Shown: positions 8,215-35,139 of the stretch, in pieces
How the letters are laid out: each line of letters begins with the position of its first letter
Numbering within the stretch: the first letter of the stretch is position 1
Assembly (NCBI GenBank): GCA_020439745.1
Contig: JAGQSC010000021.1
Location: 124,001-188,000, forward strand
From: Acidobacteriota bacterium
GTDB taxonomy: Bacteria; Acidobacteriota; Holophagae; Acanthopleuribacterales; Acanthopleuribacteraceae
DNA: 64,000 nucleotides
Direction of reading: 5' to 3'
The notes under the pieces: generated by a model
What the model saw: only the letters and a program-made list of their open reading frames with translations
What the model was told of the DNA's origin: nothing
The model's database searches: none
Made by a program: the position numbers and the translations under genes

Positions 8215-8289
8215 TGGTACCCCCGGATGGAATCGAACCATCGCACCTGGCTCCGGAGGCCAGTGCTCTATCCACTGAGCTACGGGGGC
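8215..8289 (-). tRNA. tRNA-Arg(CCG)
   Basis: Full cloverleaf on the minus strand: acceptor stem GCCCCCG/CGGGGGT (closing pair G-U), D arm GCTC...GAGC, anticodon stem CTGGC/GCCAG with loop CTCCGGA (anticodon CCG, reading CGG), 4-nt variable loop, and T stem GATGG/CCATC with loop TTCGATT. The 3' CCA is encoded. The G1-U72 closing pair is slightly unusual. Confidence 0.95.
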
Positions 8290-29143: not shown

Positions 29144-30454
29144 ATGCTAGGATCCAGATTTCTACAAGAGGAACTGTTGGCTAAGAAGAGCGACCACTCC
29201 TATTGGGCCCTGTTGAGGGATCATTCGCAGTACCGACGTCTCTACATCGCACGAACCGTGTCGCTGCTTGGAGATTGGTTTAATTTATTGGCTTTACTGA
29301 CGTTGCTTCGTTTGACCACGGATAACACAGGCAGTGTGGTCGGCGGCCTATTCATCATGAAGCTGTTGCCTACCTTTTTGTTGGGTCCAATAGCCGGTGT
29401 GGTAGCCGATCGATATTCCCGCGTGAAGGTAATGATGTGGAGCGACCTCGCCCGCTTCTTCCTGACAGCGCTTTACTTCACGGTCCCGCTCTTGTCAGGT
29501 GGCCATCTCATAGCAATTTACCTGTTAACAGGGTTGCATGCGGGCGCATCTGCCTTCTTTGAGCCTGCACGAACCGCGACTCTGCCCAATCTGTTACCCA
29601 CCCATATGATCGTGCGAGCGAATGCATTGGGCGCTATGACATGGAGTGGGATTTATGCATTGGGCGCGGCAATAGGAGGGGTTGTCAATGAATTTGCCGG
29701 TTGGCAAATGACTCTGATGATTGATGCCTCGAGTTTTTTGTTCTCGGCCTACATGGTTGGACGCATTGTGGTGTCGCAACGAAAACCGCAACCGGATACT
29801 GAATCCACCGGCAAAATGGCAGAAGCGATTGAATACATGAGACGTGAACCTAAGGTCTTGTTCACCGTTTTGTTGAAGTCTGGCTGGTGCATTGCCGGAG
29901 CGATCCAGTTGGTTTTGACCTTGTATGGGACCCACGTCTTCAACTACGGAGGGAAGCCTGACTTCGGGGTTGCTATGCTTTTTGTCTGTCGGGCTCTCGG
30001 TACCGCAATCGGACCGATTATTGGCCGCCGTCTGACTCGTGAAGAACCGCGGTCGATGTTGAGACTGGTCATCCTTTCCTTTTTTGTCTCGGCGGGTTTC
30101 TATGGCCTGTTTGGATTGGCGCAAACAGTATGGCAGGCATACGCCTGCGTCTTTATTGCGCACATGGGCGGCAGTATCATTTGGGTCTTTTCCACTGTCT
30201 TGCTGCAATGGAGGGTCGAAGACCGCTATCGTGGACGCGTGTTTGCAACCGAGTTGGGACTTGCCACGCTTTTGATTTCCATATCCACCTGGACTGTGGG
30301 CGCCATCAACGATTCAGGCTTTCCGCTTCAGCGGTTACCGGGCATGCTGGGATGGTTGTTGTTGTTATCAGGCGTTACTTTTACGCTTTGGCATCTCATT
30401 GGAGCTCGGCAGGGGCGGTTCGGGCACGGAGATGGTACACCTGGTGGCCGGTGA
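29144..30454 (+). CDS. MFS transporter (MFS_3/EntS-like exporter)
   Basis: Integral membrane protein of 436 aa with about twelve hydrophobic helices. The motif GPIAGVVADRYSRVKVMM between helices 2 and 3 and TATLPNLLPTHMIVRANAL are typical of the MFS_3 group, which exports siderophores, macrolides and similar molecules. The substrate is unknown and no biosynthetic cluster lies nearby. ATG 29144 has a weak GGGGA SD; TTG 29177, preceded by GAGGA, is a possible alternative. The last 59 bp overlap the 3' end of the convergent anti-sigma gene. Confidence 0.82.
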   Translation: MLGSRFLQEELLAKKSDHSYWALLRDHSQYRRLYIARTVSLLGDWFNLLALLTLLRLTTDNTGSVVGGLFIMKLLPTFLLGPIAGVVADRYSRVKVMMWSDLARFFLTALYFTVPLLSGGHLIAIYLLTGLHAGASAFFEPARTATLPNLLPTHMIVRANALGAMTWSGIYALGAAIGGVVNEFAGWQMTLMIDASSFLFSAYMVGRIVVSQRKPQPDTESTGKMAEAIEYMRREPKVLFTVLLKSGWCIAGAIQLVLTLYGTHVFNYGGKPDFGVAMLFVCRALGTAIGPIIGRRLTREEPRSMLRLVILSFFVSAGFYGLFGLAQTVWQAYACVFIAHMGGSIIWVFSTVLLQWRVEDRYRGRVFATELGLATLLISISTWTVGAINDSGFPLQRLPGMLGWLLLLSGVTFTLWHLIGARQGRFGHGDGTPGGR

Positions 30455-31484
30455 AAGTCAGTTCCAACACGTGATGGGTGGTCTCACCGTTGACTGAAAC
30501 GATCACGCCTAGTTGCGGGTTCCAATGCCATTTCTCAAGCTTGAGTTGTGACCATTTAGCAACCCAGTCTTGAGCAGAAATTTGCTTTTCGTCCCAATCT
30601 ACAAGGGCGTCAGAGGTGAAGAGTTGGAGCGCTTCATCCGCGTTTTGACGGGTCCAAAGTGACATCAGTGTTTCCACCCACTGTTGTTCACTCCAAGCGC
30701 GTTCTGGTTCGGCCTCAGCGGCAAGCATCGATCTAGTCCGCTCGTAAGCTGGCGTTTGGGATCGAGCTGGCGCCTGGTCAGTGGTGTCGGCTAATCGGGC
30801 CTCGGATTTGATAGGTGCAGTTGTCGGTGCGGCAAAGTTTCCAGGAGCTTCTGGTTCTGGAGCGGCTTGGACGGAGTCCATGAGGTCGGTTTCTTCGCGA
30901 GCAGATCCAGTTATGGGTGTCTCAGTCATCATGACTTCTTCCTTGTCCTCGGTAACGGCTTCGCCAGACGCGAAATGGGTTTCATCTTCTAAGGTGTCTT
31001 TGTTCAGAGTCCGATCAAGATCGAAGGAATCATGTTGCTGTTGCTTTTGCGCAGTTGTGCGTTTTGCCCCTGCCGATGCTTCGGAGGGTATTTCTTGGGC
31101 GATGGTTACAGGCGCAGGAAGGTCGTCAGCGGCGATAGGTTCAGGTTGGGTTGCGTCTGTTTTCTCAGCCACCTGTGCGTGTTCTTCAAAAGTAGTATTG
31201 GGTGTTTGCCTCTGGACGGGTGACCACAGGCTGATTCCGATGATCGCTACAGCTGCCAGAGGTAATATCCAATATTGCCACCGAATGGTTGGTTTGGCCT
31301 TGGCTGTTGTGGGCGGCGGAACCACTTCAGTCAGTAGCTTGAGCTGATGGTCTAGGCCTTCATAGATCGACAGCATGCGTTCGGCGTCGTCAGTCAACGC
31401 GTCTGCATATTGCTGACGGATGGCTTCCGGTTCCATGTCTTCCAGCAAAAGTTCAAGCTGGTCAAGCGTCAAAGGTTCAGTCAA
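30396..31484 (-). CDS. Putative membrane anti-sigma factor with NTF2-like C-terminal domain
   Basis: Single-pass membrane protein of about 362 aa encoded directly behind the ECF sigma gene, overlapping it by 8 bp (TTG start 31484 behind GGAGG). The short cytoplasmic N-terminus (about 65 aa, DQLELLLEDMEPEAIRQQY) is acidic and helical and lacks the HxxxCxxC zinc motif of ZAS anti-sigmas. One transmembrane helix lies at about residues 69-87, followed by a long Ala/Pro/Glu/Thr-rich spacer. The roughly 95-residue C-terminal domain (WVETLMSLWTRQNADEALQL, WHWNPQLGVIVSVNG) looks NTF2/DUF4440-like. Assignment rests on position and topology, not on sequence homology. Confidence 0.65.
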   Translation of the reverse strand: MTEPLTLDQLELLLEDMEPEAIRQQYADALTDDAERMLSIYEGLDHQLKLLTEVVPPPTTAKAKPTIRWQYWILPLAAVAIIGISLWSPVQRQTPNTTFEEHAQVAEKTDATQPEPIAADDLPAPVTIAQEIPSEASAGAKRTTAQKQQQHDSFDLDRTLNKDTLEDETHFASGEAVTEDKEEVMMTETPITGSAREETDLMDSVQAAPEPEAPGNFAAPTTAPIKSEARLADTTDQAPARSQTPAYERTRSMLAAEAEPERAWSEQQWVETLMSLWTRQNADEALQLFTSDALVDWDEKQISAQDWVAKWSQLKLEKWHWNPQLGVIVSVNGETTHHVLELTFTGHQVYHLRARTAPAELQ

Positions 31485-32016
31485 GGCCCACCTCCGCAAG
31501 TTGTCGCGCCAGCCTAATGCGTGCACGCCGGATATGGGTCTTCACAGTGTTGAGGTTGTCACCCAGCATCTCTGCGATTTCCTTTTGTGGCAGGTCACCC
31601 ACTGCCTCCAGCAAGAGCGTTTCCCGCTGTCGTTCGCTTAGTTGATGTAATGCATGGCGGAGGGTCCGCCATCGCGCTTTTGCAATCACCTGATCAATCG
31701 GTGCTGGTCCTTTGGACTCGATCTCCAAATCGGCGACATCACTCATCAGCTGATCTTTGCGCTTATGGCTGCGAAGCGTGTTGAATGCGATGGCAAACAA
31801 CCATGATCTGAACCGTTCTGCATCTTGCAAGGTGTGCAGTGATTGGGTCACCTTCATCCATGTTTCCTGGTACACGTCCTCTGCCTCCGTGATCGATCGC
31901 AATCGCCCAACCAAGAATCCCCACAGGTCCTTGTGCACCGAGTCAATTAATGCATCCATTGAAGCGCGGTCACCCGCGACTGCTTGCTGCACCAAGGATA
32001 TAGGGGGATTGTTCAT
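31477..32016 (-). CDS. ECF-type RNA polymerase sigma factor
   Basis: Extracytoplasmic-function sigma factor of 179 aa with region 2 (DLWGFLVGRLRSITEAEDVYQETWMKV cut across) and FRSWLFAIAFNTLRSHKRK. Region 4 shows LSERQRETLLLEAVGDLPQKE and EMLGDNLNTVKTHIRRARIRL. ATG 32016 has GGAG eight bases upstream. It is the first gene of a two-gene unit with the membrane protein that probably controls it. No convincing ECF-type autoregulatory promoter could be picked out upstream. Confidence 0.92.
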   Translation of the reverse strand: MNNPPISLVQQAVAGDRASMDALIDSVHKDLWGFLVGRLRSITEAEDVYQETWMKVTQSLHTLQDAERFRSWLFAIAFNTLRSHKRKDQLMSDVADLEIESKGPAPIDQVIAKARWRTLRHALHQLSERQRETLLLEAVGDLPQKEIAEMLGDNLNTVKTHIRRARIRLARQLAEVGLD

Positions 32017-32105
32017 GAATCAGGCTCCAGCCATCCAGAAAGGAGACGCGTATGCATGCGACAAGTTTCACCCATAGCATAACGCCGATAAGATTTTCCG
32101 CGAAA

Positions 32106-32134
32106 TTGGCCGATAAGGTGAAACATGGTTTAAT
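32106..32134 (+). promoter_or_regulatory. Sigma70-type promoter of the degenerate histidine kinase gene
   Basis: TTGGCC (32106-32111), a 17-bp spacer and TTTAAT (32129-32134), 47 bp before the ATG. Confidence 0.5.
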
Positions 32135-32181
32135 GTGAATACCCACGTACTCCCACGATTCCGGGTGCGAACACCTTGAAA

Positions 32182-33738
32182 ATGCTTTTGATTTCTGAGC
32201 CGCTAGATGCGCTTGAGCCGTTTGCCGATCTACTGACAAGCGAAGGGCATCATGTGGATCGCGCACAAAATGGCATTGAAGCCAATGACTTGATCCTAAC
32301 GGGTTTGGCGGTGAGTTCACCTTACGAATTAATTGTGTTGCACCACTCGCAAAACAAATCAGATACCCGTGAACTGATTAAGTATTGGCGCAACCAGGAT
32401 CCCTTTCTGCCTTTGGTGTTGATTTCGATGCCGCAAACGCTCACGGACCAAGACTTGAGAGCGTTGGGTCTTCTGGATTGCATTCCCGAAGATACCCCGA
32501 TACAGCTGGCCAAAAACAGGCTGGATTTATTGCAACAGACCGTGGCCTTGGGGTCCACCTACCGTGTGAAGGCCGATATTTTGACAAAACCTGCGTCCAT
32601 GAACGACCCTTTGGCTTCCGTCAACGAAGCCCTGGATCACATTCAGGACCGAGTCACGGTACGTGCGGTAGCTTTTGTCAGTTATACGGCAGTGATCAAC
32701 GATCCCATCATGCAGTTGGGTAAGCATCTGGAAATATATGATCAAATTTGGTTGGATGACCTCTGCGAACAGGCGTTTGAACGCTTGGAACCCATACTCA
32801 AATCCAACCGCATGGTTTTCGAGCCATCAGAATCCCCACGCTACCTTTTTCCAATATCTACGACGCGTGGGTGGGAAGGACTTTTGGTGTTCTTTGCACC
32901 GGAAACAGGTCGTACCAACATGGACCCGGTTGTTGCGGGACAGTACACCACCATTGCCGATGGCGTTAGAGCCATGTTGGAGCATGTACGTTGTCGGGAA
33001 GCCCTCCAACGAGCCAAGCGTTCGAAAATGGAATACATGTCCATTCTTTCCGAGCGGATTCGTCAACCCATGGCAACCCTACAAGGGACCAGCGATCTAC
33101 TTATGATGGTCGATACCGACGAGACGATTAAGAACATGACATCTCGAATTGCACACAATGCAAGAATGGCGACCACCATGCTGGAAGATATCATCGAGTT
33201 GGGGCGAATCGATGATGGCATGCTGGTGATCCATCCCGAGAAACTATCGATGAAGTCGTTTCTTAAGCGACTCGTGGACCAACTCAGCTTGATGTTCTCG
33301 GAAAAGAATCTGCGTGTGGTGTTGGCGATTGAAAATGACGATGAAGCGATGGTCGTTGGTGACCCTGAAAAGCTGGCGCGTGTGTTTACGAATCTTTTGA
33401 CCAATGCGGTCAGATATTCTCCAGAGGACGCAAGTATCACGATCAGCATTGCGTCTGACGACGATGACTGGATTCGGATTACGGTTGCCGACCAGGGCCC
33501 CGGGCTGATGGCAGGTCAAGAAGAGACCATTTTTGAGCGGCCAGAGCCAGCCCAACATGCCACGATCACCGAACAAGGGATTGGCCTTTACCTCTGTCGC
33601 AAGTTCATCACAGCCCATGATGGGCATATCTGGGTGGAAAGCAATTTGGGCTTTGGCTGTGCTTTCCACGTGCGCCTGCCACCTTCACACGTGCAATGGG
33701 ACGACAACAGCCCGTCGTCTATGGCCGCCGGAGCATAA
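32182..33738 (+). CDS. Histidine-kinase-like protein lacking both phospho-acceptor residues
   Basis: Soluble protein of 518 aa. The N-terminal 125 residues resemble a receiver domain, but the position of the phosphorylated Asp is His54 (in YELIVLHHSQ). A GAF-like middle region follows. In the dimerisation helix the usual SHExRTP motif reads SERIRQP, with Glu291 where the phosphoacceptor His should be. The ATPase domain is well kept: TNLLTNAVRYS (N box), DQGPGL (G1) and GIGLYLCRKF (G2). It thus could bind ATP but not autophosphorylate in the canonical way. ATG 32182 is chosen; TTG 32176 is possible; no SD is visible. No response regulator is adjacent. Confidence 0.82.
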   Translation: MLLISEPLDALEPFADLLTSEGHHVDRAQNGIEANDLILTGLAVSSPYELIVLHHSQNKSDTRELIKYWRNQDPFLPLVLISMPQTLTDQDLRALGLLDCIPEDTPIQLAKNRLDLLQQTVALGSTYRVKADILTKPASMNDPLASVNEALDHIQDRVTVRAVAFVSYTAVINDPIMQLGKHLEIYDQIWLDDLCEQAFERLEPILKSNRMVFEPSESPRYLFPISTTRGWEGLLVFFAPETGRTNMDPVVAGQYTTIADGVRAMLEHVRCREALQRAKRSKMEYMSILSERIRQPMATLQGTSDLLMMVDTDETIKNMTSRIAHNARMATTMLEDIIELGRIDDGMLVIHPEKLSMKSFLKRLVDQLSLMFSEKNLRVVLAIENDDEAMVVGDPEKLARVFTNLLTNAVRYSPEDASITISIASDDDDWIRITVADQGPGLMAGQEETIFERPEPAQHATITEQGIGLYLCRKFITAHDGHIWVESNLGFGCAFHVRLPPSHVQWDDNSPSSMAAGA

Positions 33739-34109: not shown

Positions 34110-35111
34110 TTAGTCACCGTCCAGCAGGTTGCCAAGCGCACCTAGGACGCTGCCTTCACCTTGTCTGCGACCGCCGGTTTGAGGCGCCGCAGCATAAATG
34201 CGATCGGCAAGACGCGAAAAGGGAAGCGACTGCAGCCAAACTTTGCCGGGACCAGTCAGCGTGGCCAGGAACAATCCCTCACCACCGAAAAACATGGACT
34301 TCAGACCCTTGACCATTTGCACATCGAAGACAACTTGCTTGGTGAACGCCACGATGCAACCCGTGTCAATGCGCAGTGTTTCTCCTGCTTTGAGCTCGCG
34401 TCCGACAATGGTGCCGCCCGCTTGAATAAATGCTCGTCCATCGCCATTCAGGCGTTGCATGATGAAGCCTTCCCCGCCAAAGAATCCAGCACCAATGCGC
34501 TTGTTCAACGCAATCCCAATTTGGGTGCCCATGGCAGCGCAAAGAAACGCGTCTTTCTGGCAGATGATCTCGCCACCGATTTCTTTCAAATCAATGGGAA
34601 TGATTTTTCCGGGATAGGGTGCGCCAAAAGCGACGCGCTCCTTGTTGTGCGCTTTGTTCGTAAACCAGGTCATAAACAGTGATTCACCCGTGAACTTGCG
34701 TTTGACGCCCTCCCAAAGCTTGCCGCCGAATCCCTGGTCGGGCTTGGAACCATCGCCAAAACGCGTTTCCATCTCGATGCCCGCCTCCATGTACATCATG
34801 GCGCCGGCCTCTGCGATTACTGTTTCCTGCGGATCCAACTCGATTTCAACGAACTGCATTTCCTCGCCAAATATCTCGTAGTCGATCTCATGGGACACCT
34901 GAAATCCGGGTGTGGGATCCGGTGGGGGTGGCGGTACCTCCATGTGCAATGCGGATATTTGGCCGATGGGGGTCCAGTTGGCCATGCCCGATGTGAACGC
35001 TGGCGTCTCGTTGTTCAATTCGCCCGTGCGAAGTTTATTGAGCAGGTCGTCCTTACTCATGGGGCCCACTTGTTGGCCAGCTATAGCGACATACCAAACG
35101 TTATCCGTCAT
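34110..35111 (-). CDS. GYF_2-AIM24 (TIGR00266) fusion protein
   Basis: Protein of 333 aa. Residues 1-55 form a GYF_2-type domain ([20 protein letters not shown], ending in NWTPIG), followed by a Pro-rich hinge. An AIM24/TIGR00266 double-layer beta fold makes up most of the rest ([44 protein letters not shown]). A Gly/Arg-rich tail ends the protein. The family's function is unknown; GYF_2 is a protein-interaction module. ATG 35111 has GGAGGAACGC upstream. It is followed without a gap by the AhpD-like gene. Confidence 0.85.
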
Positions 35112-35139
35112 GCGTTCCTCCACCCAAATTCTTTAGCAA

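Follow-up and report, generated by a model that had tools for sequence, protein, structure and literature searches.

The window analysed here is a stretch of 64,000 nucleotides from a genome of 5.1 Mb (G000). On its forward strand lies a gene for a histidine-kinase-like protein of 518-520 amino acids. This protein was compared with its orthologues in G001, a genome of the same genus, and G002, which belongs to another genus of the same family. The features of the locus are as follows.

30396-31526, minus strand: protein of no known family, read as anti-sigma-like; divergent to the kinase-like gene in G000 and G001
31477-32016, minus strand: sigma-70-type factor (regions 2 and 4, ECF-like); divergent to the kinase-like gene in G000 and G001
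32043-32069, minus strand: ECF-type promoter motif GAAACTT-N14-CGTCTC, pointing at the sigma gene
32106-32134, plus strand: TTGG-containing hexamer, 17 bases, TTTAAT; conserved, recognised by eye
32176-33738, plus strand: whole kinase-like gene, open frame; probable start TTG at 32176, alternative ATG at 32182
32182-32535, plus strand: pseudo-receiver domain (residues ~1-118), from a profile-profile match to ordinary receivers
32341-32346, plus strand: His54-His55 at the phospho-Asp position and the one after it, from alignments
32536-32991, plus strand: middle domain (residues ~119-270), GAF-like by eye only
32992-33231, plus strand: HisKA (DHp) dimerisation helices (residues ~271-350)
33052-33054, plus strand: Glu291 at the phospho-acceptor His position (S-E-R-I-R-Q-P, ordinarily S-H-E-L-R-T-P)
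33232-33690, plus strand: HATPase_c (CA) domain (residues ~351-503), from Pfam and alignment

The open frame can start at the ATG at 32182 or at a TTG two codons 5′ of it. Because the distant G002 orthologue begins at the homologous TTG, which is preceded there by AGGAAG, the true start is probably the TTG at 32176. A search of seven genomes of the family yielded full-length relatives in G001 (74% identity) and G002 (~32% identity, full-length ORF of 496 residues) and in no other. A profile of the N-terminal half returned the three orthologues and otherwise only weak matches to ordinary receivers in 93 genomes of the class; in 396 genomes of the phylum, drawn evenly from a larger group, it matched G000 and G001 only. 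Neither the 93 nor the 396 genomes yielded a canonical full-length relative sharing this N-terminus. A scan of genome contigs gave only ordinary kinases, which matched the C-terminal half.

The C-terminal half has HisKA followed by HATPase_c, the order of HisKA-type histidine kinases, and both domains score above their Pfam cut-offs (HisKA at residues 284-346, 33.9 bits with a cut-off of 26.9; HATPase_c at 393-501, 83.1 bits). Glu291 occupies the His column in the alignment to HK853 structures, and the same position is Glu in G001 and Asn in G002. The His is present in 28 of the 30 best HisKA matches of G000, the exceptions being this protein and one other, and it is missing from a reported 0.9% of HisKA domains (PMC12632262). 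In the alignment of the orthologues, no His in the DHp helices is common to all three; His324 in the second helix, considered as a substitute acceptor, is kept in G001 and absent in G002. The two outcomes that the earlier note had named as refuting its reading, orthologues with His at position 291 or a different His conserved in the helix, were thus both looked for and not observed. In HisKA proteins the Glu at His+1 and the Thr or Asn at His+4 serve the kinase and phosphatase reactions. These two residues are replaced by Arg and Gln, respectively, in the G000 protein, changes that an earlier note on this DNA had not listed. Because both positions, together with the conserved Lys of the receiver, are altered in addition to the phospho-sites, the G000 protein is expected to have no autokinase activity, to transfer no phosphate and to lack the phosphatase reaction usual for HisKA proteins. 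The G002 orthologue may have kept a residual phosphatase role, since its His+1 and His+4 residues are both Thr.

The receiver went uncalled in a Pfam scan of the N-terminal 120 residues, which gave no match. A sequence profile built from 108 ordinary receivers, with members of this family excluded, scored the three orthologues weakly (20.0, 17.3 and 15.6 bits). Profile-to-profile comparison with ordinary receivers gave a probability of 97.3% and a score of 61.4 over residues 1-117, whereas the best of 30 column-shuffled control profiles reached 17.9; on this sequence criterion the assignment as a receiver homologue can be considered safe. In all alignments the phospho-Asp column holds His54, followed by His55. 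Glu103 stands in the column of the β5 Lys, and the first acidic residue of the pocket reads Ser5; these two changes were likewise absent from the earlier note. Asp is found at the phospho-site in 77 of 78 receivers scored with this gene and its orthologues left out, and receivers without Asp make up 2.0% of a published set (PMC12632262). The alignments thus agree with the earlier note, which had put His54 at the receiver Asp position and Glu291 at the phospho-His position. With His54 invariant, Glu, Glu and Asn at position 291 and no other helix His shared, both phospho-sites are lost in all three orthologues, a conservation read from few sequences (n = 3). The receiver phospho-site might have turned into a site for a ligand or a metal, built around the invariant His54-His55 pair, and would then be a sensor that drives a phosphate-free transmitter dimer, although we consider this quite unlikely.

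The middle domain is 71% identical to that of the G001 orthologue and 37-40% identical to that of the G002 orthologue. It gave no credible Pfam match, and a PDB search with it returned nothing, hence no solved relative; its description as a putative sensory, GAF-like domain was made by eye only. AlphaFold2 run on the three orthologues gave a pLDDT of 50.8, too low for a fold search.

The ATP-site boxes of the CA domain are present in the G000 protein, with N404 and N408 in the N box, DQGPG at 437-441 (G1), FERP at 451-454 (F) and GIGL at 466-469 (G2), and the G001 orthologue keeps every one of them. Only the FERP of the F box and the first N-box Asn remain in the G002 orthologue, which has lost the other Asn of the N box, the Asp of G1 and the two glycines of G2. 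ATP binding by the G000 and G001 proteins is therefore plausible, and it was probably lost in the G002 branch. The earlier note had described the N, G1 and G2 motifs as intact, as indeed they are in both genomes of the genus, and had proposed an ATP-gated protein. That proposal does not extend to the whole family, because the G002 gene has lost ATP-site residues while keeping a full-length ORF; ATP binding would be at most a feature of one genus and unneeded for the function common to the family.

To judge whether the gene is decaying, we ranked its divergence between G000 and G001 among that of working kinases. The identity of this pair was the second highest of 17 reciprocal-best kinase pairs (range 39-80%). 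By module, the DHp ranked 6th (0.80) and the CA domain 5th (0.63) among the 17, both within the upper range of working kinases, and the pseudo-receiver, at 89% identity, ranked second of 16 receiver pairs. Non-synonymous divergence was 0.21; because synonymous sites were saturated, this value does not yield a precise non-synonymous to synonymous ratio. Decay of a gene without function would account for the several missing catalytic residues and for the further degradation of the CA domain in G002. However, open frames of full length are present in three genomes, and the protein is better conserved than most working kinase pairs, its pseudo-receiver being the second most conserved of 16, which makes decay scarcely credible. 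On these ranks the gene is not decaying and is as constrained within the genus as working kinases are. Together with the loss of both sites in three orthologues and the lack of an alternative conserved His, this constraint supports the classification of the protein as a pseudokinase, that is, a histidine-kinase-like protein that lacks at least one catalytic function and is conserved in evolution, and here the earlier note's preference for a pseudokinase over a decayed gene is borne out.

The retained ATP site in the genus bears on two explanations of what the protein does. In the first, ATP held in the intact CA domain reshapes the dimer and so sets partner binding. The four intact boxes in G000 and G001 and a CA identity typical of working kinases are consistent with such a switch, but it is unlikely given the residues missing from the full-length G002 protein, and DivL of Caulobacter, with its boxes kept, nevertheless bound an ATP analogue >19 times more weakly than most kinases (PMC4211667). 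In the second, the protein forms a heterodimer in which its CA domain puts phosphate on the His of another kinase, so that a His of its own would not be needed. The motifs are intact and constrained within the genus, and heterodimers of paralogous kinases are known from ChrS/HrrS (PMC9491836). Against this stand the degenerate CA domain of G002 and the lack of a close paralogue in G000: the DHp-CA clade holds only this family among the kinases compared, and the N-terminal profile has one match in the genome. We regard trans-phosphorylation as very unlikely.

In the DHp-CA tree the three orthologues form one clade (support 100/98), as would fit a single old loss of the His. The G002 branch is long (2.67 vs 0.21 and 0.24 for the others), which could reflect a change of function. 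The simplest history would be that the His was lost once, long ago, that the protein stayed under constraint within the genus and that the G002 line went on to lose its ATP site.

We also considered the neighbouring genes as possible partners. In the intergenic region between the divergent genes, a single promoter-type motif is both clear and conserved, the ECF-type motif facing the sigma gene; it is kept in G001 with the same spacing, and chance would give ~0.01 matches per window, which suggests that the sigma factor is autoregulated. The element with the TTGG-containing hexamer and TTTAAT, which the promoter scan did not report on the plus strand at its position, offers a weak lead to a pseudokinase promoter. 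The head-to-head layout kept in G000 and G001 would suit a pseudokinase that acts as local regulator of the divergent sigma factor and anti-sigma-like pair. However, the clear intergenic motif faces the sigma gene, and the two genes are not distributed together: the same kind of sigma gene occurs in four family genomes (G003-G006) that do not have the pseudokinase, and a search for it in G002, which does, gave no match at the threshold used. This disagreement weakens the pair as a partner, and local regulation appears highly improbable; position was all that we found to connect the pseudokinase with the sigma factor.

Other neighbours are an AIM24 domain protein with an N-terminal GYF_2 domain (34110-35123, minus strand), also kept in G001, and a small protein similar to a portion of an ABC substrate-binding protein (PF04392; 28514-29101, minus strand), which is near the pseudokinase in G001 as well. 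In G002 the pseudokinase is preceded on the same strand by what looks by eye like a PhnD-type periplasmic binding protein (L051, 7813-8634, plus strand), possibly its input partner there. A tRNA-Arg (CCG) at 8215-8289 on the minus strand is the sole tRNA and the sole above-threshold Rfam match in the window.

The pseudokinase probably signals by contact with other proteins rather than by passing phosphate. More specifically, we lean towards a pseudo-histidine kinase of the DivL kind that has a pseudo-receiver at its N-terminus and acts by protein contact on a two-component partner. In this layout the pseudo-receiver is followed by the putative sensory domain, the pseudo-DHp and the CA domain, and neither canonical site can be phosphorylated. 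The dimeric DHp-CA module and the pseudo-receiver would serve as docking surfaces for a response regulator, an active histidine kinase or both in a two-component pathway; docking would alter the activity of the partner, and the middle domain would supply the input. What we infer is that the protein dimerises, that its middle domain is sensory, that it works by contact and that it has a partner at all. Contact is favoured because DivL works by binding and because receiver-like domains of ShkA and Osp bind HisKA modules or transmitters. DivL, which has Tyr for the His with its other boxes kept, is inactive as kinase and as phosphatase and detects DivK~P through binding (PMC4211667); the pseudo-receiver of ShkA is able to bind a HisKA domain (PMC12632262), and Osp, which is receiver-like, inhibits CckA by binding its transmitter (PMC9430884). 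Several points count against the contact model: the genes conserved beside it encode a sigma factor and a putative anti-sigma protein, with no kinase or response regulator; the orthologues number three, of which the distant one has Thr at His+4; and the middle domain is unclassified, with a structure model of low confidence.

Among solved structures, the best relatives of the DHp-CA half are HisKA kinases of the HK853 type (PDB 2c2a, 3dge and 4jas, E ~1e-28), which, unlike the pseudokinase, have the phospho-His and kinase activity. DivL (PDB 4q20) was also matched by the family profile (E 1e-17). DivL, too, is histidine-kinase-like, has its phospho-His replaced with the other boxes kept and works without kinase activity (PMC4211667). 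In contrast to the Glu, Glu and Asn of the pseudokinase, its site is Tyr (Ala in one species), and it has N-terminal PAS domains, for which Pfam scans of the pseudokinase gave no match, where our protein has a pseudo-receiver and an unclassified middle domain. The partners of DivL are DivK and CckA, whereas no such partner is known for the pseudokinase, which also comes from what we take to be another phylum. The pseudo-receiver resembles the aspartate-less receivers of CikA, ShkA, RitR and others in being a receiver homologue without the phospho-Asp, and it is also without the Lys and the first acidic residue; it differs from them in having His at the Asp position and in preceding a dead transmitter. 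A ChrS pseudokinase variant of Corynebacterium is likewise a dead kinase that alters signalling by a paralogous kinase (PMC9491836), but it is a laboratory-evolved CA frameshift with the phospho-His kept.

Pseudo-histidine kinases and pseudo-receivers are each known already and poorly understood; what is new is the presence of both dead modules in one protein. After a short literature search, we know of no described protein in which a Glu-type pseudo-transmitter is joined to an N-terminal pseudo-receiver whose phospho-Asp is replaced by His. One protein kept within a family holds both modules and has, in one branch, probably lost ATP binding as well, which suggests that a two-component fold may be kept purely for contact. 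With the ATP site intact, intact and lost, the three orthologues form a natural series for the role of nucleotide binding in a pseudokinase.

Other proteins with replaced phospho-sites were seen in the two genomes of the genus. The second His-less HisKA protein of G000 (L086; G000:C63:569993-570181, plus strand; frame of 769 aa) has Asp where the His would be, within LIDQLKNP. A HisKA protein of G001 (L129; G001:C32:238168-238362, plus strand) has Gln at the His position (ITQELRNP), and the two are not reciprocal best matches. A receiver-kinase of G000 with an ordinary H-box (L071; G000:C27:280261, ORF of 447 aa) has Glu at the receiver Asp, as does its counterpart L114 in G001 (LMLLELNLP / MILVELNLA in the pair), to which it is 72% identical.
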